From Nitrospira sp. (GTDB lineage: Bacteria; Nitrospirota; Nitrospiria; Nitrospirales; Nitrospiraceae): 64,000 nucleotides of DNA. The first letter of the stretch is position 1, and every line of letters starts with the position of its first letter. The notes under the pieces were generated by a model. It saw nothing but the letters and a program-made list of their open reading frames with translations. It was not told where the DNA came from and made no database searches. The position numbers were made by a program, and so were the translations under genes. This document shows, piece by piece, positions 41,967 through 57,881 of this stretch. The stretch covers positions 124,001-188,000 of the forward strand of contig JACOEL010000001.1 in NCBI GenBank assembly GCA_024998625.1. The letters are read 5' to 3'.

Positions 41967-44117
41967 CTAGAGGCGATAGGCAACACCGGAGCGTAGGCTT
42001 TGTACGGCCAGGAAGCAGGCCCGTGTCACTGCGTCGATCTGCTCGAACGGGATGACCGGGGCTTGTCCTCCCGCAACGGCTTGTACAAACCGTGACATTT
42101 CTTCCGTAAACCCCTTGTCCCGTTTTGCGGTCTTGAACACGGTGCTCTTGCCGTCTTTATAGGTCTGCGTCTCTAGGAAATCGTGCATGACGAGCGACTT
42201 GCCGTCGGCATGGGCCTCAAAGCGTTCTTTCGGAAGTTCGCTGTTCCCCTCTGCCGTGTAAATGACGGTGCCGATGGATCCGTCCGAAAAATTGAGCACA
42301 ATACTGCATTGGTCATCGGTCATGCCGGAGCTATGCTGTCCGATTCTGGCGGCATACACCGAGATGGGCGGTGATCCGGCGAGTGCTTGCATGTAATCGA
42401 CGAAATGACACATTTCACCGATGAGGCGCCCGCCTCCTCTGTCCGGGTGTTGCACCCAATGATCGGCTGGGATGCGTCCTGCGTTAATGCGATAGAGCAT
42501 GACGAGCGGGTTGCCGCGCGATGAGAAAAAATTCCTGGCTTCCTGTGCATGCGGAGAAAACCGCCGATTGAAGCCCACCATCAGATGCAATCCTTCGGCG
42601 GCCTTCTTTTCATAGACGGAGCGGATGTCCTCCAGTTCGTCTTCCGTCAGGCAGAGGGGTTTCTCTACGAACACATGCTTGCCCGCGAGTAGCGCTTTGA
42701 TCGTCAGCGTGGCATGGCTGTCATGGCGAGTTCCGATCAGGACCGTGTTGATGGCCTGGTCTTCTAGAATAGACTGGCTGTCGCTCGTGCAATAGGCGGC
42801 GGCGACTTTCCCCGCCAGCGTCTTGGCTGTGATGCCTGAGGCGGTACAGATGCCGCGAATGTCGACATTTTCCATGTTTTGCAGCGGCGGGAGCAGCATA
42901 TCTTTTACATGGTTTCCCGCACCAATGATCCCCAGCGTCACCGGGCGAGCCTTGTGGGTCGCCCCGACAGCAATGGTTCGCGGTATGAGGCGAGCGTGAT
43001 CGGATGGATAGGTAATGACCATCGCGACATAGGGCGCGGCGCCCTCCATCATCAGGGCGTAAGCCGACTCGGACTGCTCGATGGGAAAGCGATGGGTGAT
43101 CAGCGGCTTGAGGCGCATCTTCCCTGCCGCGACGAGTTCGAGAAACGCCTGCATGTTACGTTGCTCTGTCCAGCGCACATATCCGAACGGGTAATCGTGC
43201 CCCTGTTCCTCGTATGCCTGGTCATAGCGGCCAGGGCCGTAGGACATGGACAAGCGCAGGTCCAACTCCTTCTGATAGTACGGTTCGCGGGGTATATTCA
43301 TGCCCACCGCGCCGACCACCACCACCTTCCCCTTTTTTCTCGCGATTTCGCCGGCTGTCTCCACGGGGCCGTTATCCTTGGTGCTGGCCGTGATGAGCAC
43401 CGCATCGACGCCGTGCCCGTCTGAAAAGACCGCGGAAGCATTCGCAAGATCGGAAGACGGGGTCACCACGTCGGCTCCCAACTGTCGCGCCAGTTCCAGC
43501 TTGGATCGATCCACATCAGATCCCAGCACACGGCAACCGGATGCCTTCAACAATTGCACAGTCAACTGGCCGAGCAACCCAAGGCCGATGACGGCGATCC
43601 GGTCTCCTAGCCTGGGCTCCGCCTGACGAACGCCCTGCAGGGCGATGGCTCCGAGCGTCACAAAGGAAGCATCCTCGAAATCCACGCCGTCCGGAATTTT
43701 CACGCAAAGATGTTTGGGAACGTAGACCATTTCTGCATGGGAGGCATAGTTGTGCCCCGCACAGGCCACTCGGTCACCGACCGTAAAAGATCCTGCGTCG
43801 CGAGCAACCTCCAGCACGGTGCCGGCGCAGCTGTACCCCAGCGAGGCTGGCGAATCCAATTTATCGAATACACGGGAAAGCGTGAGCGCGAGCCCGTCTG
43901 TCTGAATCGCGGCGAGAGCCTTTTTCACCTTCTCAGGACGTTCCATGGCCTTGCTGAGCAGCGATTTCTTGGTGCTCTGAATCGTCGACTTTTCGGTTCC
44001 CGGGCTGATGAGCGAGGCTTCATTCAGGACAAGGAGTCCGCATCCTCGTAGCGAGGGCGGAGGGACCTCCTCTACTTTGACCACTCCGGATCGCTTATGC
44101 TGAAGAATTTGTTTCAT
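41967..44117 (-). CDS. Two-domain oxidoreductase: zinc-type alcohol dehydrogenase plus Gfo/Idh/MocA
   Basis: 716 residues. The N-terminal half (about 1-350) is a medium-chain dehydrogenase with SLGYSCAGTVLEVA, the Rossmann motif IAVIGLGLLGQLTVQLL and YGPGRYD. The C-terminal half (about 380-700) is a Gfo/Idh/MocA domain with TLGIIGAGNHVKDM and HVFVEKPLCL (catalytic Lys of EKP). This bi-domain type is found in exopolysaccharide loci, where it likely acts on nucleotide sugars or sugar alcohols. It is the last gene of the exosortase/EPS cluster. There is no catalytic zinc-cysteine cluster, so the zinc label is by fold only. Confidence 0.88.
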   Translation of the reverse strand: MKQILQHKRSGVVKVEEVPPPSLRGCGLLVLNEASLISPGTEKSTIQSTKKSLLSKAMERPEKVKKALAAIQTDGLALTLSRVFDKLDSPASLGYSCAGTVLEVARDAGSFTVGDRVACAGHNYASHAEMVYVPKHLCVKIPDGVDFEDASFVTLGAIALQGVRQAEPRLGDRIAVIGLGLLGQLTVQLLKASGCRVLGSDVDRSKLELARQLGADVVTPSSDLANASAVFSDGHGVDAVLITASTKDNGPVETAGEIARKKGKVVVVGAVGMNIPREPYYQKELDLRLSMSYGPGRYDQAYEEQGHDYPFGYVRWTEQRNMQAFLELVAAGKMRLKPLITHRFPIEQSESAYALMMEGAAPYVAMVITYPSDHARLIPRTIAVGATHKARPVTLGIIGAGNHVKDMLLPPLQNMENVDIRGICTASGITAKTLAGKVAAAYCTSDSQSILEDQAINTVLIGTRHDSHATLTIKALLAGKHVFVEKPLCLTEDELEDIRSVYEKKAAEGLHLMVGFNRRFSPHAQEARNFFSSRGNPLVMLYRINAGRIPADHWVQHPDRGGGRLIGEMCHFVDYMQALAGSPPISVYAARIGQHSSGMTDDQCSIVLNFSDGSIGTVIYTAEGNSELPKERFEAHADGKSLVMHDFLETQTYKDGKSTVFKTAKRDKGFTEEMSRFVQAVAGGQAPVIPFEQIDAVTRACFLAVQSLRSGVAYRL

Positions 44118-44151: not shown

Positions 44152-45552
44152 TCAACTGTTCCCCTTCAACAACTGCCGGACGTGTTTCCACGCTTGTCCG
44201 AATCCCCACGACTGGGTGCCTGGCGGCCCCGCCTCACGAGTCTGATCCCCTTCCAGGCTTGAGAGGCGAACGGCCGTGTCCTTGAAAGTCCGGTCGGTGC
44301 GGAAAATCAACCGGTATTGCTCAAGCGCTTCCGGTTTTTCCCCCAACTGCTCCAGGGTTCGCCCCAACAGATAGCGTACGCTTAAACTTTGCGTGCGCGG
44401 CGCGTTGTAATCCGTGCAGGCCTTTCGAAATGCCGCCACGGCCTGGGGGACAAGACCAAGCGCCCGGTAACAGAGCCCGATCTGTCCAAACGCGCGCAGG
44501 TGGTAGGCCGGGTCGCGAGCGGCCTGCTCGAATTGGGCGATCGCGGCGATATAGTCCTGAGATTTCCGGAGCGTCATTCCCCGCTGATAGTAGGGTTCTG
44601 CCGCGCCGACAGGTTGTTGGCTCTCGATTTGTAGCGGGGACTCACGTGATGGTAGAGATTGCGCGATGGATTCCTGCGCATCGGGCTCCTCCGCATCCTT
44701 CCCTGCCGCGAGCTCTTCCAGATCGTCCAGTTCCGCCAGCGGGAGGATTCGATTCTTTCGTCGATCGAGCGCCGCCTGCGCCAGCAGCTTCGCGGTGATC
44801 CGCGCGGCCTGCTGCGCATACCCATAGGTCAAGGCCATTTCGCACACTTGGTTGATCAACCGTGGATTTCCCTGGCTCAAACGGTAGGTCAAGGCACAAG
44901 CCGGGGCGCTAAAGAGCGGTTGCGTCGATCCTGCGAGCTGGATACGGTGGCGAATATAGTGCGCGACTTCTTCCTCCGTGAAGGGTTGCAGATGGTAATC
45001 CACCACGACCCGCTGCGCGAACTGGGTCATATCCACCCGGCGCAAGAGTGTTTGCAGATCCGGTTGGCCTGAGAGGATGATTTGCAGTTGCAGCGTCTTT
45101 TCCTGATTCAAATTGGAGAGCAACCGCAACTCCTCGAGCAGTTTCACGCCCAGATTTTGCGCCTCGTCCATGATCAGTACTACCCGCCGGTGCCGTGCCC
45201 TTTCCTGGGCAAGAAAATTGGCGAAGAGATGCTGGGCTTCGACCGGATCGACTTGTTTGTTGTTCAGACCAAGCGCAAAGAGAATCCACGGCAGCAGATG
45301 ATCCACATCGTAGCGGGCATTGGTGAGGAAGCCGATCGAAAAGGCGTCGCGGGTATCCGCGATCAATTTTTGAAGCAGCGAGGTCTTGCCCATGCCGGGA
45401 TCGCCGGTCAGCACCATGAATGGGGCTTCGGTGAGGAGGCCGTACTCCAATAGGCTGTAGGCGGTGCGGTGGGTCGAACCAAGATAGAGAAACTCACTGT
45501 CCGGCAGCAGCGAAAACGGTTTGCTATGGAGTTGATAGAAGCTTTTATACAT
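44152..45552 (-). CDS. ExeA-like AAA ATPase with TPR tail (exosortase/EPS-associated, XrtA ATPase type)
   Basis: 466 residues. The N-terminus MYKSFYQLHSKPFSLLPD is the hallmark of the putative secretion ATPase family (TIGR03015 type). Walker A is GDPGMGKTS and Walker B is VVLIMDEAQ, followed by sensor LSGQPDLQTLL and GNPRLINQVCE. From about residue 320, two TPR-like repeats (YYQRGMTLRKSQDYIAAIAQF) form the tail. Starts 8 bp after the kinase stop, so co-transcribed. Such ATPases accompany exosortase-linked polysaccharide loci; the precise task is unknown. Confidence 0.88.
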   Translation of the reverse strand: MYKSFYQLHSKPFSLLPDSEFLYLGSTHRTAYSLLEYGLLTEAPFMVLTGDPGMGKTSLLQKLIADTRDAFSIGFLTNARYDVDHLLPWILFALGLNNKQVDPVEAQHLFANFLAQERARHRRVVLIMDEAQNLGVKLLEELRLLSNLNQEKTLQLQIILSGQPDLQTLLRRVDMTQFAQRVVVDYHLQPFTEEEVAHYIRHRIQLAGSTQPLFSAPACALTYRLSQGNPRLINQVCEMALTYGYAQQAARITAKLLAQAALDRRKNRILPLAELDDLEELAAGKDAEEPDAQESIAQSLPSRESPLQIESQQPVGAAEPYYQRGMTLRKSQDYIAAIAQFEQAARDPAYHLRAFGQIGLCYRALGLVPQAVAAFRKACTDYNAPRTQSLSVRYLLGRTLEQLGEKPEALEQYRLIFRTDRTFKDTAVRLSSLEGDQTREAGPPGTQSWGFGQAWKHVRQLLKGNS

Positions 45553-45559
45553 CGATGGC

Positions 45560-46384
45560 CTATATCATTCTCTTCATGGTCGCCGGCGTGGCCGTCGCGT
45601 GGCCCACTTTGTTGACGACCGTCCCCAGTACAGGTGTCGACTGTTTGATGAGCGATAGCGCTCGTTCCACATCTTCCGCTTTTGTACGCCCCTCTTCCAC
45701 CACCAACAAAAGAGCGTCCAGATGGGGTGCAAAAGCCAGGACGTCCGAGGTCTTCAAGAGCGGCGGTAGGTCGAACAGGATCATACGCGATTGGTAGCGG
45801 TGCTTACACTCCTCGACCAGAGCCAACATCTTCGGTGACGTCAATGCTTCCGCCGAGTGTGACACGGTCCGTCCTCCGGGCAGAAAAACGAAGCGGCCGA
45901 TACCGGGATGCACCAGTAATTGTTCGATAGGCACATCATCCAGCAAATAATCGGCCAGTCCCTGACACTCACCCAGATCGAACATCTCATGCACGCTGGG
46001 GTGCCGGAGATTTGCATCGACCAGCAGCACGGATTGCGTGACGTCCATGGCTATACTGGCGGCCAGATTGACCGCGGTGAAGGTCTTTCCCTCTTGCTCG
46101 CCCGGACTGGTCACGCCGATGACATTCCAGCCTTTTTCCCGGATTCGATGCATGACTTGTGTGCGCAAAATCTTGAAGGCATCTACGAATGGCCCGGCGT
46201 CGAATCCGGCCATAATGCGCTGTTCACGCAACACCGGCTCGGGAACCTGTACCGATCGCGTACGTGTGTAGACGATGGGGGCCGGCACGGATCGCATGGA
46301 GTGGGTACGTTCGGGCTTAGGAGCGGCATGGCCCTGGTGGTGTTGTTGTTTGTATCGATCAAGCGCAGCTTGAAACCATTCCAT
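45560..46384 (-). CDS. CpsD/CapB-type tyrosine autokinase (XrtA-associated type)
   Basis: About 274 residues from ATG 46384, with AAAGGG upstream; 26 upstream codons are rejected. A P-loop (SPGEQEGKTFTAVNLA) is followed by the Walker A' motif VLLVDANLRHPSVHEMF and Walker B MILFDLPPLL. The usual GEGK is GEQEGK, one residue longer. There is no Tyr-rich C-terminal tail, as in the XrtA-associated group. It partners the Wzz-type protein encoded just upstream to control polysaccharide polymerisation. Confidence 0.88.
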   Translation of the reverse strand: MEWFQAALDRYKQQHHQGHAAPKPERTHSMRSVPAPIVYTRTRSVQVPEPVLREQRIMAGFDAGPFVDAFKILRTQVMHRIREKGWNVIGVTSPGEQEGKTFTAVNLAASIAMDVTQSVLLVDANLRHPSVHEMFDLGECQGLADYLLDDVPIEQLLVHPGIGRFVFLPGGRTVSHSAEALTSPKMLALVEECKHRYQSRMILFDLPPLLKTSDVLAFAPHLDALLLVVEEGRTKAEDVERALSLIKQSTPVLGTVVNKVGHATATPATMKRMI

Positions 46385-46448
46385 GGTAATCCCTTTCCGT
46401 ACCGGCGAAGTAACTCGAGGCCTTGGGCGGCGCCCTGCGGACACTGCT

Positions 46449-48218
46449 CTATTCGATGCCAAACCGTCTCAATGTTGCGTACCACACCACATCTAATGGG
46501 GTCCAAAACAGATGGCAGATGAGCAACAACAGGGCCACCGTTCCCAGGCCCGTGAGACGAATCCTGTTTCTTCTGGCGAGTGCACGAGCCAGATCTGCCC
46601 GATTGGGCATGTAAGGAATGAACGCCAGGGGGAAGGCCTGCGACACTCGTACCAGTTGTTCAGGGGTACGAATAGAATGGTCGAGATGCTCCGTGAGCGC
46701 GGCGGCCCCTGCGCCGCCCGCCAGCGCCAGGATGAACCCCAACAGCACAATGGCCTTCCGGTTGGGCTTCTCCGGCGATTCCGGCAGCCCCGGAGGATCG
46801 ATGAGCGAGAACCGCTCGCCTTTCCGTTGCACTTCGAGGCCTTCCGACACCTTGGCCTCCAGGAGTCGCGAGCGAATGTCCTGATATTTTTGGGACGAGG
46901 TGTCGCGGTCGCGCGCGAGCGTCAGATAGTCCGGTTCCAGCACCGGAGTCCGCTCGATGCGTTTGGCATAATCCTGAAGTCGTTGTTTGACGGTCGTACG
47001 GCTGGTTTTCAATGCTTGCAGAGATGAATTCACCGAATTGAGTTGTGCCTGAATGTTGATGTAGGCGGGATTTTCCGGACGCTGCATCGACTTGTTGCCG
47101 GCACCCGTGCCGATCCGACGGAGTTCCCGTTCCAGCGCCAGGATCGTGCGTTGAGTCTGTAACACATCGGGGTGGTTCTCTCCGAGGCGGTCGGCAAGTG
47201 TGGCCTGCCTGGCCCGGGCATCGATCAATTGTTTTGCGACCTCTTCAGTCTCCGGATTCGCCCCGGTTTCCCGCTCCAGCGCAGAGATTTCCTGTTTCAT
47301 CTTAATCACGTCCGGATGGTCCGACGACAGATTCGCGGCCACTCCGGCATATTCGGCCCGGAGGCTACGTAACCGCTCCACACTATCGAGGATACGTTCT
47401 CCGGTGACGGATAGGATGGGTGTATTCGGCTTGATGGTCGCCAATTCCCCGTCGAGATACGACTTCCGCTCCTCAAGGCTGCGGATCTGTTGATCGAGGT
47501 CCATCAGCTCACGATCCGACTGGTTCATCATTTGGAGATTCAGCGGCATTAACTCGGGCAACGCACCGGCCGCGCGTTGTTTGAAGTTGGCCAATTTGGC
47601 TTCCACTTCTTCGATATGCGCCGCGAGACTCTCCGCTTCCTGTTTCAGAAAGGTAGTGGTTTCTTGTGCTTGGCGTTCGCGGCTCTTGAGATTCTCGCCG
47701 AGAAACAGGCTTGTCAGTTCATTCGCCACACGTTGGGCGGTATCAGGCGACCCACTGTTGTAGGACACGGTGAAAGCAATGGTGGCCTTGGTCGCATGCT
47801 GCGTACGTTTGTCGATGACATCGGCGCTCATCACCTCAACCTCGATATCCTTGATGAACCGCTTGATGACCCCTTCTGTAGGGCTTTCACGTCTCATTTC
47901 AGGATACAGATTGTACTGTTCCACGACCTTCCAGAGACTGGCACGACTCATGACCTGCTGCTTGATCATTTCAATCCGCTGGTCGGCATAACTCGTGATG
48001 GTGCTATGGACCAACTCGGCAGGCACTTCTTGTTCTTCGATCAGAATCGTTGCCATGGATTTATAAGTCGGGGGCCAAAGTGTTGCTGTGGCAACGCTCG
48101 CACAAAATAGTATCCCCCCGGCGCCGAATATGACCCAGCGACGACGCTGAAACACTTCTCGTAATGCTTGGAGGTTAATGGTCGATTCAGGTTCATGAAG
48201 ACGTTCTAGAATGGGCAT
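46449..48218 (-). CDS. Wzz/EpsF-type polysaccharide chain-length determinant
   Basis: About 589 residues from ATG 48218 (AAGGAGG upstream). A first membrane helix near 30-50 (WVIFGAGGILFCASVATATLW) is followed by a Wzz domain and a long periplasmic coiled coil (about 170-430, with LDQQIRSLEERKSYLDGEL). A second helix lies near 510 (AIVLLGFILALAGGAGAAAL), and a third hydrophobic helix near the C-terminus. The Pro-rich motif ENPxYI lies in PENPAYINIQAQL. The separate kinase gene follows. Confidence 0.88.
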   Translation of the reverse strand: MPILERLHEPESTINLQALREVFQRRRWVIFGAGGILFCASVATATLWPPTYKSMATILIEEQEVPAELVHSTITSYADQRIEMIKQQVMSRASLWKVVEQYNLYPEMRRESPTEGVIKRFIKDIEVEVMSADVIDKRTQHATKATIAFTVSYNSGSPDTAQRVANELTSLFLGENLKSRERQAQETTTFLKQEAESLAAHIEEVEAKLANFKQRAAGALPELMPLNLQMMNQSDRELMDLDQQIRSLEERKSYLDGELATIKPNTPILSVTGERILDSVERLRSLRAEYAGVAANLSSDHPDVIKMKQEISALERETGANPETEEVAKQLIDARARQATLADRLGENHPDVLQTQRTILALERELRRIGTGAGNKSMQRPENPAYINIQAQLNSVNSSLQALKTSRTTVKQRLQDYAKRIERTPVLEPDYLTLARDRDTSSQKYQDIRSRLLEAKVSEGLEVQRKGERFSLIDPPGLPESPEKPNRKAIVLLGFILALAGGAGAAALTEHLDHSIRTPEQLVRVSQAFPLAFIPYMPNRADLARALARRNRIRLTGLGTVALLLLICHLFWTPLDVVWYATLRRFGIE

Positions 48219-48259
48219 CAATGGCCTCCTTTGGATTAATCTTCAGGATGGGCCTTTGC

Positions 48260-49495
48260 CTAGTTCCCAACTGAAATCTTAAGGGGATAGTAAGTTAACA
48301 TCAGTACCATGGCATTCGACATTGTGGGGTCTGCAAGAGTTTCCCCATCACGCCATCCGTAGATGTATGAGGCATCTAGCTTCCATCGTTCCGAAAACTT
48401 CCACGTGAGTTTGGGCGTCAGGTACAATAGGTTGCTATTTGGAAATAGGCTCCCTCCCGCCAGCGAGGTTGCTCCAGTGACAAAATAGCCGGATGCATCA
48501 AAAGAGGCCATAACAGATTCCGATAACGTATATGAGGCAAGCATTCCTATGCGGTCTGTCTGGACAAGAAGCCCAACTCCAAGAGGAAAAATCTCTCTCC
48601 CAATTGTAAATTGAATGGAGGAGCTCTCAAATTCCTTGGTCAACCCAATTCCATAAACCCAGATCGTATCGCGACTGCTTTGTGTGATTCCGCCCGACTG
48701 AGACGTAGAACTCAGAAACTTTGGTCCTCCGTAAATCGTTGTTTTAATGTCTTCCGTGAAGATATGGGTAAAACTCAACATGGCTCCTGGATAATAAGCA
48801 CGCAAGCCAAAGGAGCCATTTATCGTGCGAAAATTGGTATAGGTTCCAGCCAACTGGATATCGTCACGTTCTGTCAGGTGATACAAGAATCCCGCTGATC
48901 CGCCATACAATTGATAGTCCAGCAAACCAAGTCGTAAGCCATCCTGATAACTTGCATCGTTAAACTGCAGCGAGCTTTGAACTGATAACTTATCGGTGAC
49001 CATTCTTGTCCACGTGGGGCTAATCGTCCAGAGATTGCGTTGGGTGAAGCGTAACACGACTCCGGTGGTTAACAGCTCGCCCATCAAGGTATTGTCTCTG
49101 GTGAACCCTCCGGTGAATGCCCATTCGTCTCGCTCCGTCCGATATTTCATCGTGAGCGGCAAGAACACATTGGTAAACCGGCTTGGTTCTCCCCCATAAT
49201 AATCCACAAAGTCTAATGCTGCCTTGCCGCTCACCTCTAGTCGTTCGGTCTTCCCTGAAAATTCGACCCCCGGCGAAACCCAATATCCATAAGTCGGGTC
49301 GTGTGGCAACGGAGTCAGCAAGAGGTTGTCGTTGTAATAGGCCTTGGTGCTCATCCATGGTACGATCGACCACTCGGCGGCAAGACTCGGAACGGTCATG
49401 GTTAAGACCAGAGATACAACTGCAAGGCAAGCAAGTCTTCTACCTGACTTCCAGGCGGTCTGCCCCCTTTTCCAACTCAGCGACGACAACCTCAC
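48260..49495 (-). CDS. Outer-membrane beta-barrel protein of the exosortase/EPS locus
   Basis: 411 residues from GTG 49495. A signal peptide with cleavage after SLAAEW-type region (residue ~40) is followed by alternating beta strands rich in Tyr, Ser and Gly (LEVSGKAALDFVDYYGG, FTHIFTEDIKTTIYGGPKF). It resembles the PEP-CTERM-associated barrel family (TIGR03016 type), probably an export pore or barrel partner of the Wza-like protein, whose stop is 3 bp upstream. Base composition is more AT-rich than its neighbours. Confidence 0.75.
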   Translation of the reverse strand: MRLSSLSWKRGQTAWKSGRRLACLAVVSLVLTMTVPSLAAEWSIVPWMSTKAYYNDNLLLTPLPHDPTYGYWVSPGVEFSGKTERLEVSGKAALDFVDYYGGEPSRFTNVFLPLTMKYRTERDEWAFTGGFTRDNTLMGELLTTGVVLRFTQRNLWTISPTWTRMVTDKLSVQSSLQFNDASYQDGLRLGLLDYQLYGGSAGFLYHLTERDDIQLAGTYTNFRTINGSFGLRAYYPGAMLSFTHIFTEDIKTTIYGGPKFLSSTSQSGGITQSSRDTIWVYGIGLTKEFESSSIQFTIGREIFPLGVGLLVQTDRIGMLASYTLSESVMASFDASGYFVTGATSLAGGSLFPNSNLLYLTPKLTWKFSERWKLDASYIYGWRDGETLADPTMSNAMVLMLTYYPLKISVGN

Positions 49496-49498
49496 GAG

Positions 49499-50113
49499 TT
49501 ACGGCACCATCACGACATCGCCGCGTTGCAGAAGGATATTCTGTTCTAGATCAATTCCCTTTCGCACATCACTATAGCGGAAGGGAAATGTCTGCTGTTG
49601 TCCCATAACCCGCCGCACAATCTTAATGTCGTTTTCCGCCGCAAAAGGAGTCAGTCCCCCTGCGAGGCTTAAGGCTTGGAGGACATCGGTATAGTGGCCG
49701 ACCAGGTATTCGCCGGGCTTGGTCACTCTGCCTACGATATAGACTTTGTAACTCAATACTTTCATGACGGCGACCGTGACGTTCACCGCAGGAATATATT
49801 TAATCAGCCGTTTGGCGAGTTCTATGCGCAATTCCTCCACAGTTCGACCTTCGGCCTGCACATCCCCCACCAGCGGAAAGGAGATCATACCGTCCGGCCG
49901 GACGACCACCTCTCTCGTCAGGTGCTCATCTTTCCAGACGGAAATTAGCAAGACGTCTTCCGGGCCGAGCGTATAGCCGGAATCAGGTACCGGTACAGTT
50001 GGTGTCGCTCCGGGCCCGCCGGAGATGCACGAGATGAACGAACTCATGACAAAGACACAAGCGATCAATGTGAACGCCCTCGTCCGCAAGAATACCCGCA
50101 TGTCACAACGCAT
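49499..50113 (-). CDS. Wza-type polysaccharide export lipoprotein
   Basis: 204 residues from ATG 50113 with AGGAG upstream. A lipoprotein signal (FVMSSFISC, Cys ~29) precedes a Poly_export domain (about 45-130: YTLGPEDVLLISVWKDEHL, VVRPDGMISFPLVGDVQAEG) and an SLBB domain (YKVYIVGRVTKPGEYLV). It is shorter than E. coli Wza (379 residues) and has one SLBB, typical of XrtA-type loci. It exports polymer across the outer membrane. Confidence 0.92.
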   Translation of the reverse strand: MRCDMRVFLRTRAFTLIACVFVMSSFISCISGGPGATPTVPVPDSGYTLGPEDVLLISVWKDEHLTREVVVRPDGMISFPLVGDVQAEGRTVEELRIELAKRLIKYIPAVNVTVAVMKVLSYKVYIVGRVTKPGEYLVGHYTDVLQALSLAGGLTPFAAENDIKIVRRVMGQQQTFPFRYSDVRKGIDLEQNILLQRGDVVMVP

Positions 50114-50124
50114 TAAAAGAACTC

Positions 50125-52575
50125 CTATCCGCTCGTCTGGGCGAGCAACCGTTCCGCTTCTCGACGCCCTTGGAATGCTTCCGTACTCTTGAGTGCCTTG
50201 GCCAGGTACACCTTGGCTTCGATGTTCCGTCCCGACTGATACAGCGCTGCGCCGAGGTGATAATTGAGCATCGGGAGGTCGGGGGCCTTGGCAATCGCTT
50301 GCCGCATGAGACGAACCGCATCATCCAAATGCCCCATTTTCAACCGAACCCACCCCAGCGTATCGAGAAAAAGCGGGTGCGGCGCCTCTTTCTCAAAGTC
50401 GCGGCTCAAGAGAAAAGCCCGCTCCAAATGCGACGCATCAGCTTTGAAATCAGCGAGTAGAGTCGCTAGGTTGTTCGCAGAGAGGACATTGCGGGGATTC
50501 ATCCGCAACACGGCGTCGTATGCACCGATGGCTTCATCGACCGAACCCTGGTTTGCCAGGACCGATGCCAGCAGCATCTGCAGTTCTTCACTGGTCGAAT
50601 TGACCACGAGGCCTTCTCTTAATGTTCGGATTGCACTGTCCGCCTGGCCCTGCAAGAGCAACAGTGTCGCCCAGTTTATCCAGGGGAGCACCCAAGTCGG
50701 ATTGATTCTGGTCGCTTCGCGGAATTGTGCGGTTGCGGCATCGTGCCGACCGACAATCGACAGGACTTCTCCGAGTAACCCGTGGGCGTAGGGATGGGCA
50801 GGATTTGCGGCTACCACAGTTTCCAGGCGTCGACGTGCTCGATCGGCTTGTTTTTGGCCTAGATCGAGCCGGATGACTGCTAACAAGGGCTCTTGCGCAT
50901 CGGGGCTCATCGCAGCCGCCCGCTCAAAAGCCACGGTCGCTCTTGCGAAGTCCTTTTGGGCCTCCTTGAGACGGCCATCCGCCATCATAGTCACGGTAGT
51001 CTCGCCGATCACTCCACGCAAGCTTCCCAGGGTAGCTCTGGCATGGTTCCAATCACCTGCCCCAAGATCCAGGGCAAAGAGGCGCTCCATTGTTGGGATG
51101 TGATCAGGGTGAGATTTCAGAATCTCGTTCAGGCGCACTCTGGCCCGTTGGAATTGTCCGCTCTGACTCTCCAATATGGCTAGCGCCAAATTCGGCTCGA
51201 CCATATTTGGATGGAGCGCCATGGCCCGCTCGAAACTTTCGCGCGCCAACTGCGAGTCTCCGGTCATTAGATAGGCTTGCCCAAGCGAATAGTGCACGTG
51301 GGCCAGTTCGGGTTGATCCCGAAGCACTGTGCGAAACGCTTGTACAGCATCCTTTCCATTTCCCACGATGAGAGCGATTTTCCCCTGCAGTATCAAGCCT
51401 TCGGCCGAACGTGGATTTTCCCTCAATATCTCTCTTAGCCGTCGTTCAGCTTTAGCTCGATGTCCGGCGTTGAAGTCGAGCTGTGCTAGCTTAACCTGTG
51501 CATCTAAGCCAGCAGGCTTCTGCCGATAGTCTCTCGCCAGGTTTTCATAGACCATCCTAGCTGCAACCGGGTCCTTGTGTGCCTCATAGAGAGCAGCTAA
51601 GGCGAACGGTATCTTTGTGGAATAGGGAAGCCGTTCAGCCGCCTGGTGCAAGCTGGACACCGCAGCCTCTTTAGCTCGGCGGAGGTTCAAGAAATCGGCT
51701 AAGGCCAACCATGCTTGCTCGCTTTCTGGAAAAACCTGCACCGCCTCGCGTAATACAGATTCTGCGTGATCGAACCCATGGTATTGATCATGGAATCGGG
51801 CCAGTTTCAGGCGATGGTCATACACCATCGGTTCCTCTTCGATCATTCGACGCAGCACCTGCTCCGTTGCCTTATGGTCGTTGGTCTGGTCCAGGATGGT
51901 CTTTAGGTTGTTCAAAAGATCCAGGTGATGCGGATGGGCCTGGAGCGCCCGCTGCAAGGTGATCCGGGCTTCCTGAGCGCGATGCTCATGAGCATACAGC
52001 GTGGCCAGGAGAATCGCGACATCCGGCTCAGTCGGGTACTTTTTGCTCAACTCCTCCGCCCGGACCGTCGCCTGATCAATCTTGTCCTGCTGCGCGAGCA
52101 AGGCGATCTTCAGGGCCTGAGCCTGCGGGTCTTGCGGATTTTTTGCGAGCACCTTGTCCGCCGCCCGTCCCACCTCATCCACCAGTTTGGCCTCGAGATA
52201 ATACTTGGCCAAAATGATGAGGGCATCTTTGTGATCGGGTATGATCTCTATCACCTGTTGATAGTTGGCGACCGCATTGCGCCAGTTCTTTTCCTTTTCT
52301 TCCACCTGTGCCACGAGGAAGTAGGCGTCGGCGTCTTTGGGATCGATCTTCAGTACATTTCGCAACGCCACCCGGGCCTTCGGGAAGTTCCCTGCCTGGA
52401 TATAATCCTGCGCTTTGCTGCGATATTGCGCCTTCCGCTCCTGAGGGCCTCCACAGGCTGATAAGGTGAGTATCACCGCAAGCGCGACCATGGCCGCGAA
52501 AGGCCTGAGGATGGAAGGCCGCAGGCCGGTAATCGGGATCATACGATGCACTGGTTGTCTCGATCCTACAGCCAT
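50125..52575 (-). CDS. TPR-repeat lipoprotein, PrsT/PEP-CTERM system type
   Basis: About 816 residues from ATG 52575, which overlaps the upstream stop by 10 bp. An N-terminal lipoprotein signal (VALAVILTLSACGG) is followed by roughly 20 tetratricopeptide repeats to the C-terminus, with the recurring pattern A-x-Y/F-x-A-L-x-x-x-P (for example GNFPKARVALRNVLKIDPKDADAYF). This matches the PEP-CTERM system TPR lipoprotein. It is likely a periplasmic scaffold holding the export or sorting complex. Confidence 0.88.
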   Translation of the reverse strand: MAVGSRQPVHRMIPITGLRPSILRPFAAMVALAVILTLSACGGPQERKAQYRSKAQDYIQAGNFPKARVALRNVLKIDPKDADAYFLVAQVEEKEKNWRNAVANYQQVIEIIPDHKDALIILAKYYLEAKLVDEVGRAADKVLAKNPQDPQAQALKIALLAQQDKIDQATVRAEELSKKYPTEPDVAILLATLYAHEHRAQEARITLQRALQAHPHHLDLLNNLKTILDQTNDHKATEQVLRRMIEEEPMVYDHRLKLARFHDQYHGFDHAESVLREAVQVFPESEQAWLALADFLNLRRAKEAAVSSLHQAAERLPYSTKIPFALAALYEAHKDPVAARMVYENLARDYRQKPAGLDAQVKLAQLDFNAGHRAKAERRLREILRENPRSAEGLILQGKIALIVGNGKDAVQAFRTVLRDQPELAHVHYSLGQAYLMTGDSQLARESFERAMALHPNMVEPNLALAILESQSGQFQRARVRLNEILKSHPDHIPTMERLFALDLGAGDWNHARATLGSLRGVIGETTVTMMADGRLKEAQKDFARATVAFERAAAMSPDAQEPLLAVIRLDLGQKQADRARRRLETVVAANPAHPYAHGLLGEVLSIVGRHDAATAQFREATRINPTWVLPWINWATLLLLQGQADSAIRTLREGLVVNSTSEELQMLLASVLANQGSVDEAIGAYDAVLRMNPRNVLSANNLATLLADFKADASHLERAFLLSRDFEKEAPHPLFLDTLGWVRLKMGHLDDAVRLMRQAIAKAPDLPMLNYHLGAALYQSGRNIEAKVYLAKALKSTEAFQGRREAERLLAQTSG

Positions 52576-54194
52576 GCCTTTACTCCCAATCCGAACAGGA
52601 CCCATAACGAGAGGAACCCCAAGTGCTTCACTCGGTCGACGAACGAATGGAGTAATAACTCAAACGAAAAATACAACACGATCAACTTGGCGGCGAGAAT
52701 GCTCAGGGTCGGCATATCGGCTCGCATTTCCGGCAGCAAGGGGACGATCAAGGCGAAAAATACCATCAGGTAATCCAGGGGTGTGGTCTGGAATCGATTC
52801 CCGCGGCTGAATCGCATGCTCAATAACACCAGAAGGGCGATGAGCGCCAACAGGGTATTCTGCGTCACGTAGATGGGCCAGATCTCCGGAATGCCCGACT
52901 GCTCTCCCATATACATCAGGAAAGCGCTGCCGACATACAGGCCCCCGCGCACAAAATGGGAGCGGTATTCGGGCATGAACCACAGACCTCCCAAGACCAC
53001 GGCGAACAGGCTGAAGGCCGCGTACCCGACATCCATCGGGACATGTCCCGGCAAGAACACGCTCGCGATCAAGAACAACGGCACCACGACCGCGAGAAAC
53101 CGCGGCGCCATGTCGCTGAGCCATATCCCGGCACGGGCCAATTTGGTATCGGAGAGCACTCGGCCCTTCGACGTTTCCGATAGCAGAAGGCCTCCCCGCT
53201 CGGCCGCGACGAACAGGGCGAACATGGCCGTGGCAAATGCGCCATACATGGTGAAAATCAGGGCATCGGATTGCCAGCGCAGAAGATACGCGAGGCCCAC
53301 CATCACCGCCTGGATCCCATAGATCACGATGACGGCTTCATGGTGCGAGAGTCCGAGAGCCAGCAACTTGTGGTGGACATGGTTCCGGTCGCCGATGAAG
53401 GGCGAGCGGCCCTTCGCAAGCCGCTGCCCCATGACCGCAAGCGTATCCAGAAACGGCAAGCCCAGCACCAGCAGTCCGACAGTCACAGGAAAGGGGGTGC
53501 GCGCAGGGTCACTCATGAGGAGTACGAGGACTCCCATCGAGAACCCGAGCAATTGGCTTCCCGCGTCGCCCATGAAAATCCTGGCCGGATAGGTGTTGTA
53601 CCTCAAAAATCCCAGTAAGCCGCCTAAGAATCCCGCTGCCAGCACCAACACCGTGGTCTCGTGCGACAGATAGGCGAGATACGCAATGCCGGCAAAACTC
53701 AGAAAGGCTAGACCTCCTGCTAGACCGTCGAGGCCGTCGGAGAGGTTGACCGCGTTCGAGGCTCCGACAAGAAATACCACGGTCAAGGGCATCGTCAGCC
53801 AAAGCGGCGCTTCCTCATCGTGAATAAACGGAATCTGTTCGAAGTGAATGTGACCGAAAATGACTACCACGAAGATGGCCAGTAATTGTCCAACGAGTTT
53901 GGTTCTGTAATTCAGGTTGGCACGGTCGTCCCAAATGCCGAAACCCAGGATGATTGTCGCGCTCACCAATACCGGCGTGATGATAGGATCCTGCGGCGCC
54001 CAGAAGAAAACTGACAGGAGTGCCGCGAAGCCGAACGCGATGCCGCCGATCCTCGGAATCGGATTCGCATGGACCTTTCGTTCGCCTGGAAGATCCATGA
54101 AGCGCCAGCGCCCCGCGTTCATCTGTAGCGGCGGGATCAGCGCCATGCAAATGAAGAGCGAGGTGATGAAACTGAAAAAGACGGCGCTGGTCAT
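52566..54194 (-). CDS. Undecaprenyl-phosphate glycosyl-1-phosphate transferase (WecA/MraY family)
   Basis: 542 residues with about 14 membrane helices. Family motifs: PRIGGIAFG, the aspartate motif NLSDGLDGLAGG, FMGDAGSQLLG and the HIH-like motif DRNHVHHKLL. The first 330 residues are the transferase. The last ~200 are extra membrane helices not found in WecA, whose role is unknown. It would start the repeat unit by loading a sugar phosphate on the lipid carrier. The gene starts 2 bp after the exosortase stop. Confidence 0.9.
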   Translation of the reverse strand: MTSAVFFSFITSLFICMALIPPLQMNAGRWRFMDLPGERKVHANPIPRIGGIAFGFAALLSVFFWAPQDPIITPVLVSATIILGFGIWDDRANLNYRTKLVGQLLAIFVVVIFGHIHFEQIPFIHDEEAPLWLTMPLTVVFLVGASNAVNLSDGLDGLAGGLAFLSFAGIAYLAYLSHETTVLVLAAGFLGGLLGFLRYNTYPARIFMGDAGSQLLGFSMGVLVLLMSDPARTPFPVTVGLLVLGLPFLDTLAVMGQRLAKGRSPFIGDRNHVHHKLLALGLSHHEAVIVIYGIQAVMVGLAYLLRWQSDALIFTMYGAFATAMFALFVAAERGGLLLSETSKGRVLSDTKLARAGIWLSDMAPRFLAVVVPLFLIASVFLPGHVPMDVGYAAFSLFAVVLGGLWFMPEYRSHFVRGGLYVGSAFLMYMGEQSGIPEIWPIYVTQNTLLALIALLVLLSMRFSRGNRFQTTPLDYLMVFFALIVPLLPEMRADMPTLSILAAKLIVLYFSFELLLHSFVDRVKHLGFLSLWVLFGLGVKAWL

Positions 54195-54196
54195 GG

Positions 54197-55741
54197 TCAG
54201 TCCGGAATATACCGCTTCAATTGAGGGTGTATGTTCCTGGCAAACTCGAATAGTCGATTCTCGACATCCTGTTCACTCTCGTTGGGTTCGATGGCGGCCG
54301 AAAGGCGAATCAAGGATCCATCAGTGCGCTGTTTGGTCAATGCATCCCAAAACAAATACACCTTTACTAGGTACTCGTTGGAGAGGGTGCGATCGCGTTG
54401 CTTGAACCAATAAAGCACCAGTTGTTTCTGCCGATCTTTTTGAATTAACACACGATTGGCCGGCTGGGAGAGACCGTCCATAGACAGATTCACGGTGCGA
54501 TGGGAGGTGATCTCCCATCCTCCACCGGGAATGCAACTCTGCGGGGAATGCGCGGATTGGCCCTTTCGCTGCGATCGGTAGTACGCCATATAGAGGGTGA
54601 TCGGACCTCCTCCTGTTAACGCATAATCGGCTAGCAGGTAATCGTCGAATCGCAGGGCAGAGATAAACTGTGTCTCCAGGGGCAAGGGGGTCCCCTGCCA
54701 CTTTCCGATACGCATGGAAAAATCGACGAACGCGGCCCGGTCTGGCGGCACCTCCTGTCGATCACCGATCGACCAGGAAAACAAGGCTGCGGGCAGAATG
54801 AGCGCAAGGCTTCCCAAATAAGGCGGCACCCTGAGTACTGTGGCAGCAACAGGGAACGCGGACCGGGAGGAGAAATCCCGCGAATCTTGATACTCGTAAA
54901 TGTGGAATTGGGACAGGAAACCGTGGGAGCCAGGCATCGGTTGCACCAGTGTCAATCCCCACATTTCAAATACCAACAAACCCAAGGTAAACATGAACAG
55001 CACCCAGCCTTCGAAGAGGTGCAGGAACCCTTCGGCCGCCTGCGGCCCATAGACTTCCACAAGCATGCCGACAATTCCGATTCGCAGACCATTCACCAGG
55101 ATGGAGATCGGTAACGCAGATAGGGCCAGCACCACCCGCTTCCACATCCGATCCCGAAAAAAGTATGCGCATAAGAGTGCGAGTGCCGTCAGGGGAAACA
55201 GATACCTGATTCCGCTACAGGCCTCGGCGACCTGCAATTGAACCGGACCGAGATCGATGACGTTGCCTTCGCGAAATGCCGTCACCTCAATGGTCTGAAG
55301 AAAACCCACGCCCAAAGCTGAGGACCACAGCTGCAACTGGCTTGAGAGCGAGTTGTGCAGAAAGGCTGGAAGGGGAATGCTGCTTAGAAGATACACCAAG
55401 GGAAAGGCTAGGTCTCGCGAGCCTCCAAGCCCGATCCACGAAAGAGCCAGTCCGACGATGACCACCCACAGGGATAACTGCAGAACGACGAAGAGAGTGG
55501 AGAAATTACCGACGAAGTAGAGCGATAGGCCAATAAGAACGACCACCGGCCCCCACCAGGACGGAGCTAGGCCGACCGCTGCTAATCGGTGCCGCCGCTG
55601 CCAAGCAATGGCCCCACTGATGATTGGGACGAATATTCCATGGCTGTAGTCATCACTCATCCATTGGCCGAAGAGGAACATTGAGCTGTCGGCGTACATG
55701 TAACCCAAGAGGGCCACAGTCAGTAATCCGATTACTGCCAC
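54197..55741 (-). CDS. xrtD: Exosortase D (VPLPA-CTERM specific) with fused EpsI domain
   Basis: 514 residues. The first ~285 residues are a polytopic exosortase with the transpeptidase-like triad visible: Cys175 in AEACSGIRYLFPL, Arg220 in LVNGLRIGIVG and His241 in HLFEGW. From about 300 on, an EpsI domain follows (SMRIGKWQGTPLP, YMAYYRSQRKGQSAHSPQSCIPG). It would cut and transfer proteins bearing a VPLPA-CTERM tail, such as the adjacent gene product. GTG 55741 is the best start but lacks a clear ribosome site, and the N-terminus may be a little short. Confidence 0.9.
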   Translation of the reverse strand: MAVIGLLTVALLGYMYADSSMFLFGQWMSDDYSHGIFVPIISGAIAWQRRHRLAAVGLAPSWWGPVVVLIGLSLYFVGNFSTLFVVLQLSLWVVIVGLALSWIGLGGSRDLAFPLVYLLSSIPLPAFLHNSLSSQLQLWSSALGVGFLQTIEVTAFREGNVIDLGPVQLQVAEACSGIRYLFPLTALALLCAYFFRDRMWKRVVLALSALPISILVNGLRIGIVGMLVEVYGPQAAEGFLHLFEGWVLFMFTLGLLVFEMWGLTLVQPMPGSHGFLSQFHIYEYQDSRDFSSRSAFPVAATVLRVPPYLGSLALILPAALFSWSIGDRQEVPPDRAAFVDFSMRIGKWQGTPLPLETQFISALRFDDYLLADYALTGGGPITLYMAYYRSQRKGQSAHSPQSCIPGGGWEITSHRTVNLSMDGLSQPANRVLIQKDRQKQLVLYWFKQRDRTLSNEYLVKVYLFWDALTKQRTDGSLIRLSAAIEPNESEQDVENRLFEFARNIHPQLKRYIPD

Positions 55742-55764
55742 CAGGCACCTGGATGTGATGCTAA

Positions 55765-55790
55765 TCCTCTCCCCCGTTCGGGGGAGAGGA
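55765..55790. terminator. Strong hairpin between the VPLPA-CTERM gene and the exosortase gene
   Basis: An 11-bp perfect stem (TCCTCTCCCCC and its complement) closes a 4-nt loop, 24 bp upstream of the exosortase start. There is no T-run on either strand. It could attenuate read-through from the target gene or be an interspersed repeat. Confidence 0.45.
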
Positions 55791-55912
55791 AGAAAAGCGG
55801 AGAGCGACGTGAATCGTGCGAATGATGAGGGAAGTATCGCAACGACTATTAGTTGAGGTGAGGGATGTTGCGTTTGAACCTCTCAAGCCGTGTTGTTCAG
55901 TTTTCACCAGCT

Positions 55913-56602
55913 TTACGACTCTTTTCGTGATGTCAGGCCACGCGAGCCTAGTCCGACTAAAGCGATCAGTCCCGCGCCGAACAACCACACAGCTGCAGGC
56001 AATGGAACGAGGGACGTGAGAGCCCCCTGTACCCGATTACCCACTCCGCTAAACACCAGACGCCATTGATTCGAAGCAAACGATGAGAGACTTGGAGGCG
56101 TGGTAGGGAGATGGTCATTTGCGAAGACGTTTCCGCTTGGGTTGACTAACTCCATTTCGAATGTCGTGGGCGTTAAGCCATTCACCGTGGCAGGACTGCT
56201 CGTAAATCCATTGAGCGTCACCTTGAACGTGTCACCGAGTCCCGGGTTGTTGATCACTTGCATGACGCTGGATCCAGGGCTGAAGGTTGCTGTGTAGTTT
56301 CCGACCTTGACGGTCATGTTCTGGATTGGATTGGCGTACAGGCCCCACATGGGATCCCCGGGCAAGACGTCTGGAGTGGAGGAGTTGTAGGTGAAACTTC
56401 CAGACACCGGGAGAGCTGAACCGAACCCATTCACCCCGGATCCTCCCGATGTGAAGACACCACCGTGGACTTCTGCCACCGAGCCGCTGAAATTGAACGG
56501 TATGGTAGCCGCCTCGCTTGACGGAGCCACTATCAGCGCGCAAAAAGTCCCAACGGTAAGCCCTACAGTTCTAATAAGTACTCTCAGTTTGACCTGGCTC
56601 AT
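55913..56602 (-). CDS. VPLPA-CTERM sorted exported protein
   Basis: 229 residues from ATG 56602 with GGAG upstream. A signal peptide (cleavage near SSEA, residue ~31) precedes a beta-rich domain with many Ser, Thr, Gly, Asn and Pro (FNFSGSVAEVHGG, PVSGSFTYNSSTPDV). The C-terminal tripartite signal is complete: VPLPA, a hydrophobic helix (VWLFGAGLIALVGLG) and a basic tail (SRGLTSRKES). It is the evident substrate of the neighbouring exosortase D. The function of the mature protein is unknown. Confidence 0.9.
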   Translation of the reverse strand: MSQVKLRVLIRTVGLTVGTFCALIVAPSSEAATIPFNFSGSVAEVHGGVFTSGGSGVNGFGSALPVSGSFTYNSSTPDVLPGDPMWGLYANPIQNMTVKVGNYTATFSPGSSVMQVINNPGLGDTFKVTLNGFTSSPATVNGLTPTTFEMELVNPSGNVFANDHLPTTPPSLSSFASNQWRLVFSGVGNRVQGALTSLVPLPAAVWLFGAGLIALVGLGSRGLTSRKES

Positions 56603-57113
56603 CGTTTCTCCTTCACGCAGAAAAATGGACATCACAACTCTCTACCAGGACAAGAAGTAGAGAAGTCTCTTGCTTGACTACTTAGCATAGATATTTTTTG
56701 CACCATACATAAAAAGCAAGAAACTGCGCAAGAGTTTTTCTGTAAAATCTTAAAGTTGTATAGGTATTTCCATGAAGTGAATGGAAATACCTTCGGTATG
56801 TATCATCTCGATACAGTGAATGCAGGCAATTGAATGAAAATGAGCCACTATGACGCACCACATATCTAGAGCTAGTAGCCGTCTACTAGGGCTGAATGGA
56901 TGGGGCCATTCAGCTAATCAGCTTCACGCCTACATCATCAACTTCACGAGTTGATCACGTCAGATGATGTAAAAGATGCAGTCTGCATTGTGGTTTTCAT
57001 CGAAGAGGCAATGTATATGAAGTTGAAGAGCATGATCGTGGAAGTGCGTCCATATTTTCCGCCTCTATGCGTCCTCTTATTCCTCAGCACACATAGGGCT
57101 GCCCCTCCGCCCT
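56603..57113. other. AT-rich intergenic region with several inverted repeats
   Basis: There is no credible gene. A 12-bp perfect inverted repeat with a 7-nt loop lies at 56762-56792 (AGGTATTTCCAT arm). A 9-bp one is at 56891-56914 (GCTGAATGG arm). A nested pair is at 56931-56971 (TACATCATC outer arm, ATCAACT inner arm). The region is upstream of the VPLPA-CTERM gene and downstream of the WecG-type gene, so it should hold the promoter and regulator sites of the exosortase locus. I found no convincing sigma-54 -24/-12 pair. Confidence 0.5.
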
Positions 57114-57881
57114 CTACCTTCCAAGCCCAAGTACATGTTGCTTGAGCACCAGCCAAATGAATCTCGGGGTAGAAACGAAATTGCGCCTCCACATGCGACG
57201 CGGTTCCAGAATAAATCGATAGGCCCACTCCAGCCCGATCTTGGAGATCCATCGAGGCGCTCGTGAATACGTGCCTGCATAAAAATCGAATACGGCACCG
57301 ATCGAACCGATCACTCGGGCATTCAGTCGTCCACAATTGGCTGCCACCCACTTCTCTTGTTTCGGCGCTGTCATACCGACCCAGAGCACATCAGGCGTCG
57401 CCTCATTGATAACGGCCGTCATCCTGCGGTCCTCCTCTTCACTCCACGAGCCAAAAGGGGGCGAATAGGTTCCGCATAATGTGAGTTCCGGAAATTCAGC
57501 TACAAAACGCCTTGCCAGGAGCGCTAGAACCTGTTGCGAAGATCCAAAAAAAAAGACGCGGCCCTGTCCACGATGTTGCATGGATTTCAGCAACGAGAAA
57601 AAGTAATCATGGCCTGTGATCCTCTGCCCAATTGAAAGGCCAATCATTTTTGCCGTGAGAGTAATCCCAACACCATCAGCCACCACGAGGTTCGCCTGTG
57701 TTAGTGCTTCCTTGAATTCCGAATCGGTCTGCGCCACTACAAGGGAATGTGGATTTGCGCAGGCAAACACTATTTGAGGGTGTATTCCGCTTATTGCATT
57801 AACGGAAACCTCTGTTGCTGTTTCAAGAGAGATTCGATCGACTGGAATATCTAGAATAATTTCAGTCCGACGTTGAGCCAT
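57114..57881 (-). CDS. WecG/TagA/CpsF-family glycosyltransferase
   Basis: 255 residues. Family GT26 signatures: ANPHSLVVAQTDSEF, ADGVGITLTAKMIG, RITGHDYFFSLL, VFFFGSSQQVL and VGMTAPKQEKW. It adds a sugar (often N-acetylmannosaminuronate or N-acetylmannosamine) to the lipid-linked primer made by a WecA-like enzyme, of which one is encoded at 52566-54194. It ends in a basic amphipathic helix (EPRRMWRRNFVSTPRF) that would hold it at the membrane. Confidence 0.92.
   Translation of the reverse strand: MAQRRTEIILDIPVDRISLETATEVSVNAISGIHPQIVFACANPHSLVVAQTDSEFKEALTQANLVVADGVGITLTAKMIGLSIGQRITGHDYFFSLLKSMQHRGQGRVFFFGSSQQVLALLARRFVAEFPELTLCGTYSPPFGSWSEEEDRRMTAVINEATPDVLWVGMTAPKQEKWVAANCGRLNARVIGSIGAVFDFYAGTYSRAPRWISKIGLEWAYRFILEPRRMWRRNFVSTPRFIWLVLKQHVLGLGR

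Follow-up and report, generated by a model that had tools for sequence, protein, structure and literature searches.

A gene for the exosortase XrtD lies next to the gene for a small secreted protein with a VPLPA-type sorting tail in a 64,000-nucleotide stretch of a Nitrospira genome (C9:124001-188000, hereafter the window; the genome comprises 4.42 Mb in 37 contigs and is 100% complete), and we consider it likely that the two form a dedicated exosortase–substrate pair built into an extracellular polysaccharide (EPS) locus. XrtD (54197..55741) and its target (55913..56602) are both encoded on the minus strand, as are the hairpin between them and the EPS genes described below.

We envision that a Sec signal peptide would direct export of the target, whose C-terminal tail of the VPLPA type would anchor it in the inner membrane. 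XrtD (Cys175/Arg220/His241) would recognise and cut this tail and probably transfer the freshly made C-terminus to an acceptor, after which the mature protein, rich in beta structure, would reach the cell surface together with EPS from the adjoining genes. Being read by a single enzyme, the tail would be held almost constant by selection, the ectodomain would diversify, and the hairpin probably lets the target exceed the enzyme. Passages of Haft 2006 (PMC1569441) outline a PEP-CTERM scheme of this order: the signal peptide is cut, the tail stays in the inner membrane with its motif in the periplasm, a cysteine enzyme cuts it, and the protein is transferred to an acceptor.

XrtD and its adjacent target

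XrtD scores 523.7 bits with TIGR04152 (cut-off 400), by NCBI's naming a VPLPA-CTERM-specific exosortase, and falls below the XrtA model (TIGR03109, 181.3 bits against a cut-off of 208). PF09721 covers residues 10-261, and a fused EpsI (DUF3485) domain, PF11984, covers residues 312-511 (54209..54808). Cys175 (codon 55217..55219), Arg220 (55082-55084) and His241 (55019-55021) are invariant across 43 aligned XrtDs from Nitrospirota and Pseudomonadota; the catalytic role of the Cys/Arg/His triad is established for the family. As judged from sequence, XrtD would cut tails of the VPLPA type. The gene starts with GTG at 55741, preceded by AGGTG, and a GTG or TTG start behind AGGTG (AGGTA in one) is seen in the window and ten congeners.

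The target is a protein of 229 residues with a signal peptide, an all-beta ectodomain and a C-terminal sorting tail. Its open reading frame (ORF) runs from an ATG at 56602, with a Shine-Dalgarno sequence (AAGGAG) before it, to a stop at 55913, leaving a gap of 171 bp to the XrtD start. The predicted signal peptide spans about residues 1-31 (56510..56602), with an N-terminal helix at 4-22 and a putative cleavage point; A31 is invariant and A32 nearly so in 35 targets. The 31-residue tail (55916..56008) reads VPLPAAVWLFGAGLIALVGLGSRGLTSRKES and scores 70.1 bits with a profile of relatives' tails. It falls below NCBI's VPLPA-CTERM cut-off (TIGR03370, 20.6 bits for the protein and 24 in the genome search against 25.35); the VPLPA-CTERM architecture of signal peptide, motif, helix and basic end is present, the basic end being late and weak. 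The sequence-only reading of the window had placed XrtD beside a VPLPA-tailed protein across 171 bp, with the three residues at 175, 220 and 241 and the target ending at 56602, and all of this stands.

The AlphaFold model of the target (mean predicted local distance difference test score 84.2, about 90 or more across most of the ectodomain) shows the all-beta ectodomain followed by a helix at 203-220. The ectodomain belongs to no Pfam family (one stray match at 0.0077 in one of 35 members) and has no relative by sequence among solved structures at E<=1; assignment to a known fold was rejected, Foldseek giving no match at E<=0.001. The best VIA-align hits, PagL (Z 9.8) and OmpA (Z 8.3), reflect a barrel arrangement and say nothing on function.

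For XrtD itself, searching solved structures with a profile of the 43 sequences yielded nothing credible (best E 0.049, to ribosomal proteins). In its AlphaFold model the EpsI domain resembles the DcrB/SciW-EagT6/PsbP/Mog1 fold; Z falls from 7.9 to about 6 across the 34 best rows, the majority of which have this fold, and with Foldseek the best E is only 0.085. Several of the SciW and EagT6 structures are complexes with transmembrane regions of effectors, so that EpsI might hold the tail before or after its cleavage, for which a Z under 8 is weak evidence.

One recognisable tail in the genome

The earlier reading had called the target the only visible VPLPA substrate, and had named many other VPLPA-tailed proteins in the genome as the finding that would make the adjacency incidental. 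We searched for such proteins genome-wide and did not find them. At E<=10, TIGR03370 gives five places in the whole genome, the target at 2.9e-4 and the next at 0.255; on reading, the four weaker ones are not C-terminal tails and were rejected. The exact VPLPA-type pattern has one match, and the profile of relatives' tails finds one place among the matches listed; in each case this is the protein next to XrtD. The PEP-CTERM model TIGR02595 gave nothing above its cut-off in the whole genome (best E 1.27): the best of four candidates (L008) has a C-terminal helix and basic end without a PEP motif, and the others are not tails. Haft and Varghese 2011, in passages on such cases (PMC3237569), term single-target sorting enzymes dedicated systems; here, both a single recognisable target and neighbouring genes are found.

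Pairing across the family

We compared the locus across a sample of 120 genomes of the family, of which at least 90 have TIGR04152 matches and at least 73 have matches above the cut-off. The analysis covered 81 XrtD loci (80 fetched plus the window), and 20 further loci were added later. An initial cut at 55% identity to the window, a threshold set post hoc, divided the 81 into 54 clade A loci (the window included) and 27 group B loci, and the tree later agreed. Among the later additions, eight (L167-L169, L171, L172, L174-L176) were assigned to A or B by identity alone. In the tree of all 81 XrtDs, A forms one side of a branch with a Shimodaira–Hasegawa-like approximate likelihood ratio support of 99, and in a tree with outgroups (56 rows: 18 A, 14 B and 24 from Pseudomonadota and other Nitrospirota) it is a clade at 98. 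Group B was not recovered as a single clade, with three changes on the rooted 56-row tree.

Of 60 clade A loci, 57 have a VPLP-tailed ORF upstream of XrtD and in the same orientation. The three exceptions are two contig ends (L102, whose contig begins 81 bp before XrtD, and L174) and L109, where the frame is broken near an assembly gap and the tail is readable in another frame near a run of N. Of all 81 loci, 50 have a tailed ORF on the XrtD strand that ends no more than 700 bp upstream. Among the first 54 A loci the cumulative count rises from 50 at 700 bp to 51 at 1 kb and 52 at 1.7 kb, with a median gap of 214.5 bp. The farthest is in L156, where a VSLPA-tailed ORF sits between it and XrtD. 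The six added A-like loci include five with a target 165 to 891 bp upstream, the sixth (L174) being the one cut by its contig end. The cultivable N. defluvii (L189) also carries the pair, a locus that overlaps the sampled genomes and is not independent of them. In group B, no VPLP tail occurs within 1.7 kb upstream in any of 29 loci (the 27 plus L167 and L176; L130 shows only 356 bp). Chance adjacency of XrtD and target is rejected by this conservation across clade A, which bears out the suggestion of a dedicated adjacent target.

The number of matching tails per genome (profile E<=0.001, among the matches listed) has a median of one in A-only genomes, with exactly one in 24 of 44 and a maximum of ten. 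The corresponding median is three in the 13 B-only genomes and 7.5 in the 16 that hold both enzymes (maximum 28), and in 14 of these 16 the adjacency of the clade A enzyme and its target is kept as well. A further 16 genomes with tail matches held neither an A nor a B enzyme as classed here (at least 19 matches in G071, at least eight each in G069 and G070, for example). One target per genome is typical of clade A, not a rule.

Several points weigh against the reading of a dedicated pair. Conserved adjacency is linkage and says nothing of catalysis. In 20 of the 44 A-only genomes two to ten matching tails are listed, some in tandem and some elsewhere, and in group B a similar tail lies 5.2 kb upstream of XrtD in L081, L113 and L114. 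The tail profile was derived from the adjacent targets themselves, hence it favours such targets, and tails with an altered motif, such as VSLPA in L156, can slip past the searches. It is thus conceivable that XrtD has other targets in this genome, with tails that escape the profiles, and that the neighbour is only the easiest to recognise. The curated models are indeed weak (TIGR03370 recognises 6 of 35 targets at E<=0.01) and the degenerate tail of L156 is real; however, the profile built from relatives' tails and the pattern each give a single place in this genome, and the same profile lists up to 28 matches in genomes that also hold a group B enzyme. We therefore regard additional targets as improbable here. 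Because the curated model misses most of them, targets of this kind are probably overlooked in annotation.

Selection on the tail

Across 51 targets, median pairwise identity is 35% before the tail and 92% over the first 25 tail residues, with 63% for XrtD. Pairs that are 25-30% identical before the tail still have tails 84% identical, with 68% of fourfold-degenerate sites differing; in the most divergent pairs, fourfold sites in the tail codons differ at 0.67-0.70. Since the fourfold sites differ this much, conservation acts at the protein level. Twelve tail residues (V1, P2, L3, P4, A6, L9, F10, G13, L14, L17, G19 and L20) are the same in 52 of 52 tails. Clade A tails have their first basic residue at position 23 or 26 (51 of 52), comparison tails at 21-22 (26 of 27 readable ones), the comparison set being one that favours canonical tails (28 of 30 listed loci picked by best VPLPA score, with one empty, one misread and three VPEPAS tails).

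The rest of the protein changes fast. Within the genus (10 loci), target ectodomains are 46-97% identical to that of the window, and the exosortase part of XrtD 71-80%. Between the window and G029 (L090), two species of one genus, a central segment of the target gene, some 180 nt long, shows 98-100% DNA identity and the start of wecA about 97%, with the intervening xrtD at only about 70%; this mosaic of identities suggests recombination.

A covarying hairpin between the two genes

A hairpin with a 10-bp stem and a 4-nt loop (CCTCTCCCCC-GAAC-GGGGGAGAGG; 55766..55789) occupies the gap between target and XrtD, its stem 24 nt before the XrtD start. The pattern occurs at one place in the genome, so that a dispersed repeat was rejected. 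In all 50 clade A gaps of 60-450 nt, which represent 50 of the 54 loci, some stretch folds more stably than 20 mononucleotide shuffles of that gap (z<-2, median -4.35). The same test on the 220 nt upstream of XrtD in group B, a control that is partly coding, found such a stretch in 2 of 27.

The stem is also supported by covariation. For the 11 loci of the genus, whose arms were matched up by script starting at the two ends, pairing is kept in 108 of 110 cells. Both-side changes affect four of the ten pairs; there are six such changes, and four of them belong to a single locus, L146. Outside the genus, 27 of 41 loci were used; close copies (L095, L104, L107, L115, L117), L139, bulged stems (L092, L098, L100, L101, L108, L143) and loci with another hairpin (L122, L157) were left out. 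Here, 98.6% of cells pair and 10 of 13 pairs show both-side changes, a level reached by 0 of 500 shuffles; when the partner is displaced by one to three columns, no more than four such pairs are seen. In these 27 loci, judged by eye, the stem comes soon after the target stop and is usually followed by T-rich sequence, and thus looks terminator-like. For the window, an intrinsic terminator was rejected, no terminator-like site having been found. Rfam, searched over 55600-57100, has nothing on the hairpin and one sub-threshold match outside it (20.1 bits against a gathering threshold of 54). The hairpin probably allows more target than enzyme to be produced. A passage of PMC9850573 on Aquincola mentions a putative stem-loop terminator between pepA and prsT: there as here, the tailed-protein gene is followed by a stem-loop before the next gene of the system, but that gene is prsT in Aquincola and the exosortase here, where covariation of the stem-loop was tested.

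Upstream of the target, a sigma-54-like element (TGGYCY-N4/5-TTGCT) lies about 65-125 nt before the ATG in 18 of 51 clade A targets (L082, L093, L099 and 15 others). Sites matching at least 9 of 11 positions occur in 20 of the 51, where mononucleotide shuffles would give about 2.9; the window's genus contributes none of these 20 sites.

The surrounding EPS genes and the second exosortase

The pair is embedded in a large polysaccharide locus. XrtD is followed after 2 bp by a WecA-like undecaprenyl-phosphate sugar transferase (52566..54194; PF00953; 81 of 81 XrtD loci) and then by a PrsT-like tetratricopeptide repeat (TPR) lipoprotein (50125..52605; TIGR02917, 298.5 bits against a cut-off of 312.2; 81/81). 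Beyond these lie a Wza-type polysaccharide export protein (49499..50113; PF02563; export family score 141 against 180; 79/81), an outer-membrane beta-barrel-like protein (48260..49495; a weak TIGR03016 match, 23.2 bits against 91; 75/81), a Wzz-like chain-length determinant (46449..48221; TIGR03007, 251.9 against 278.85; 73/81), a tyrosine autokinase (45560..46462; TIGR03018, 180.6 against 230.65; 71/81) and an ExeA-like ATPase with a TPR end (44152..45552; TIGR03015, 235.3 against 324.5; 69/81), the counts for the distal genes including several loci that end before the whole set is covered. The ATPase is the genome's only TIGR03015 match at E<=1e-6. The predicted order of functions, from the pair through a WecA sugar start, chain length and Wza export to the barrel, fits delivery of one protein with EPS. 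Parts of PMC9850573 and PMC12188702 report PEP-CTERM proteins that hold EPS to cells in floc formers.

The sequence-only reading had described these accessory genes as those of an XrtA/PEP-CTERM locus. The kinds of genes are as described, but all six XrtA-system families (TIGR02917, 03015, 03018, 03007, 03027 and 03016) score below their curated cut-offs. The same EPS genes follow XrtD in clade A and in group B across the 81 loci, so the proposed unusual mixture, an XrtD within an XrtA-style locus, is not supported; with EPS proteins below the XrtA-system cut-offs and present in both groups, this is an ordinary XrtD locus of the family. Takeover of an XrtA locus by XrtD in this genome was likewise rejected, given the WecA and PrsT genes behind every XrtD and the ATPase in 69 of 81 loci. 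What had been called a compact one-substrate system does have one recognisable target, next door; 'compact' overstates the case for a pair set in so large a locus. PrsR (TIGR02915) has 58 matches in the genome, none above the cut-off (best 497.7 against 502.6) and none placed at the XrtD locus.

It is the gene before XrtD that differs between the groups: the target in A, and in 16 of 27 B loci a homologue of a WecG-like glycosyltransferase about 0.9 kb upstream. In the window, a WecG/TagA glycosyltransferase (57114..57881; TIGR00696, PF03808) lies upstream of the target; it is found in 15 of 54 clade A loci, so it is no fixed neighbour. The EPS genes shared by both groups could mean that XrtD and its EpsI domain mainly assemble EPS and that the target is an EPS-binding accessory carried along without being cleaved by XrtD, and passages of PMC1569441 place 90% of EpsH homologues near EPS genes. 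Such a role, however, leaves unexplained both the near-fixed tail on an otherwise variable protein and the lack of this neighbour in group B loci with the same genes, and we give it little credence. A dedicated pair accounts for the fixed tail through the one enzyme that would read it.

The earlier reading had proposed to check whether XrtA is also present, and it is. PF09721 finds two exosortases in the genome, XrtD and a second one on another contig, C27 (G000, L015:17500-19008), which is XrtA at 214.7 bits against a cut-off of 208. A secreted protein of 113 residues directly upstream of it ends VPVPGTILPFGIGFAGLMAWGSIRAYVRKQRKR. The VPxPGT pattern occurs at five places in the genome (six in a backwards control), and the neighbour of XrtA is the only true tail among them. 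Processing of the window's target by this XrtA is thus very unlikely despite the enzyme's presence, as XrtA has its own VPVPGT-tailed neighbour and NCBI's name for TIGR04152 assigns VPLPA tails to XrtD. Diverged homologues of the chain-length and kinase genes lie downstream of XrtA (L016). Elsewhere in the family, an XrtA-like gene in G002 (L182) has two VPxPGT tails upstream, along with a homologue of PrsT; no VPxPGT tail was seen near the XrtA-like gene in the examined stretches of G033, G019 and G024, where the G024 match begins 50 bp from the contig start.

Relation to known systems

XrtD and VPLPA tails are already known as curated families (TIGR04152, TIGR03370). The pair shares with that system the enzyme family, the triad, the fused EpsI domain, the VPLPA motif and the transmembrane helix; it differs in having one adjacent target where the known system has many scattered ones, in a tail below the curated cut-off, and in a first basic residue that comes later (23 or 26 versus 21-22). 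In the parts of PMC3237569 on rhombosortase and GlyGly-CTERM, enzyme and target are at most one gene apart in 16 of 21 genomes with a single target, an arrangement like ours, although the enzyme family is unrelated and the adjacency here persists even when a group B XrtD is present (14 of 16 such genomes). The XrtA/PEP-CTERM EPS locus with PrsT, as far as passages of Haft 2006 (PMC1569441) describe it, resembles the present one in the kinds of accessory genes around the exosortase; here, however, the exosortase is XrtD, the accessory scores are below the XrtA-system cut-offs, and XrtA lies elsewhere in the genome.

Within the collection of papers searched, none mentions both XrtD and exosortase, and VPLPA-CTERM occurs in a single one; a 2012 archaeosortase/exosortase paper may say more. 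PEP-CTERM occurs together with Nitrospira in five, in one of them only among the references. In the literature on exosortase and Nitrospira, one passage concerns Nitrosospira, and the 'Nitrospira multiformis' of another bears Nmul locus tags, which we take to be those of Nitrosospira.

More tentatively, and with more doubt than confidence, we suggest that clade A could be a private, insulated sorting channel that arose within Nitrospirota, apart from the coexisting many-target XrtD. An exosortase matched to a re-shaped tail (Gly-rich end, no immediate Arg cluster) would attach one fast-changing, recombining, beta-rich recognition or glue protein to the species' own EPS, and the RNA hairpin would set the ratio of target to enzyme.

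Since targets run to dozens in many systems, the matching of exosortase to tail is usually a guess based on co-occurrence. A pair of one enzyme and one target with a near-fixed tail offers a clean system in which to reconstitute cleavage and identify the acceptor, and tail specificity can be tested directly in genomes where a one-target XrtD coexists with a many-target one. The formation of flocs and biofilms by Nitrospira may also involve such a surface EPS protein.

Other exosortases and flanking genes

Some enzymes of the sample stand outside A and B despite scoring over the TIGR04152 cut-off, namely the one in G071 (L170) and a third type in G043, G045, G063 and G089. The G071 enzyme, at 449.8 bits, is 30% identical to the window's XrtD; its genome has at least 22 VPLPA-type tail matches, and no such tail lies upstream of L170 on its strand. 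The third type, as seen in L177 and L178 (G043, G063), is 33% identical to the window's XrtD and has a VPEPAS-tailed protein about 5.5 kb downstream. Distant exosortases in L179, L180 and L186 (G013, G010, G017), at 25% identity, have APEPAT- or APEPGT-tailed proteins upstream.

Two long ORFs of the window outside the pair deserve mention. The EPS locus ends with an ORF of 716 residues (41967-44117), which we take to be a fusion of alcohol dehydrogenase and Gfo/Idh-type oxidoreductase, and an ORF of 1232 residues at 15663-19361 is presumably a fusion of a thioredoxin-domain protein (DUF255/YyaL-type) with an aldo/keto reductase.

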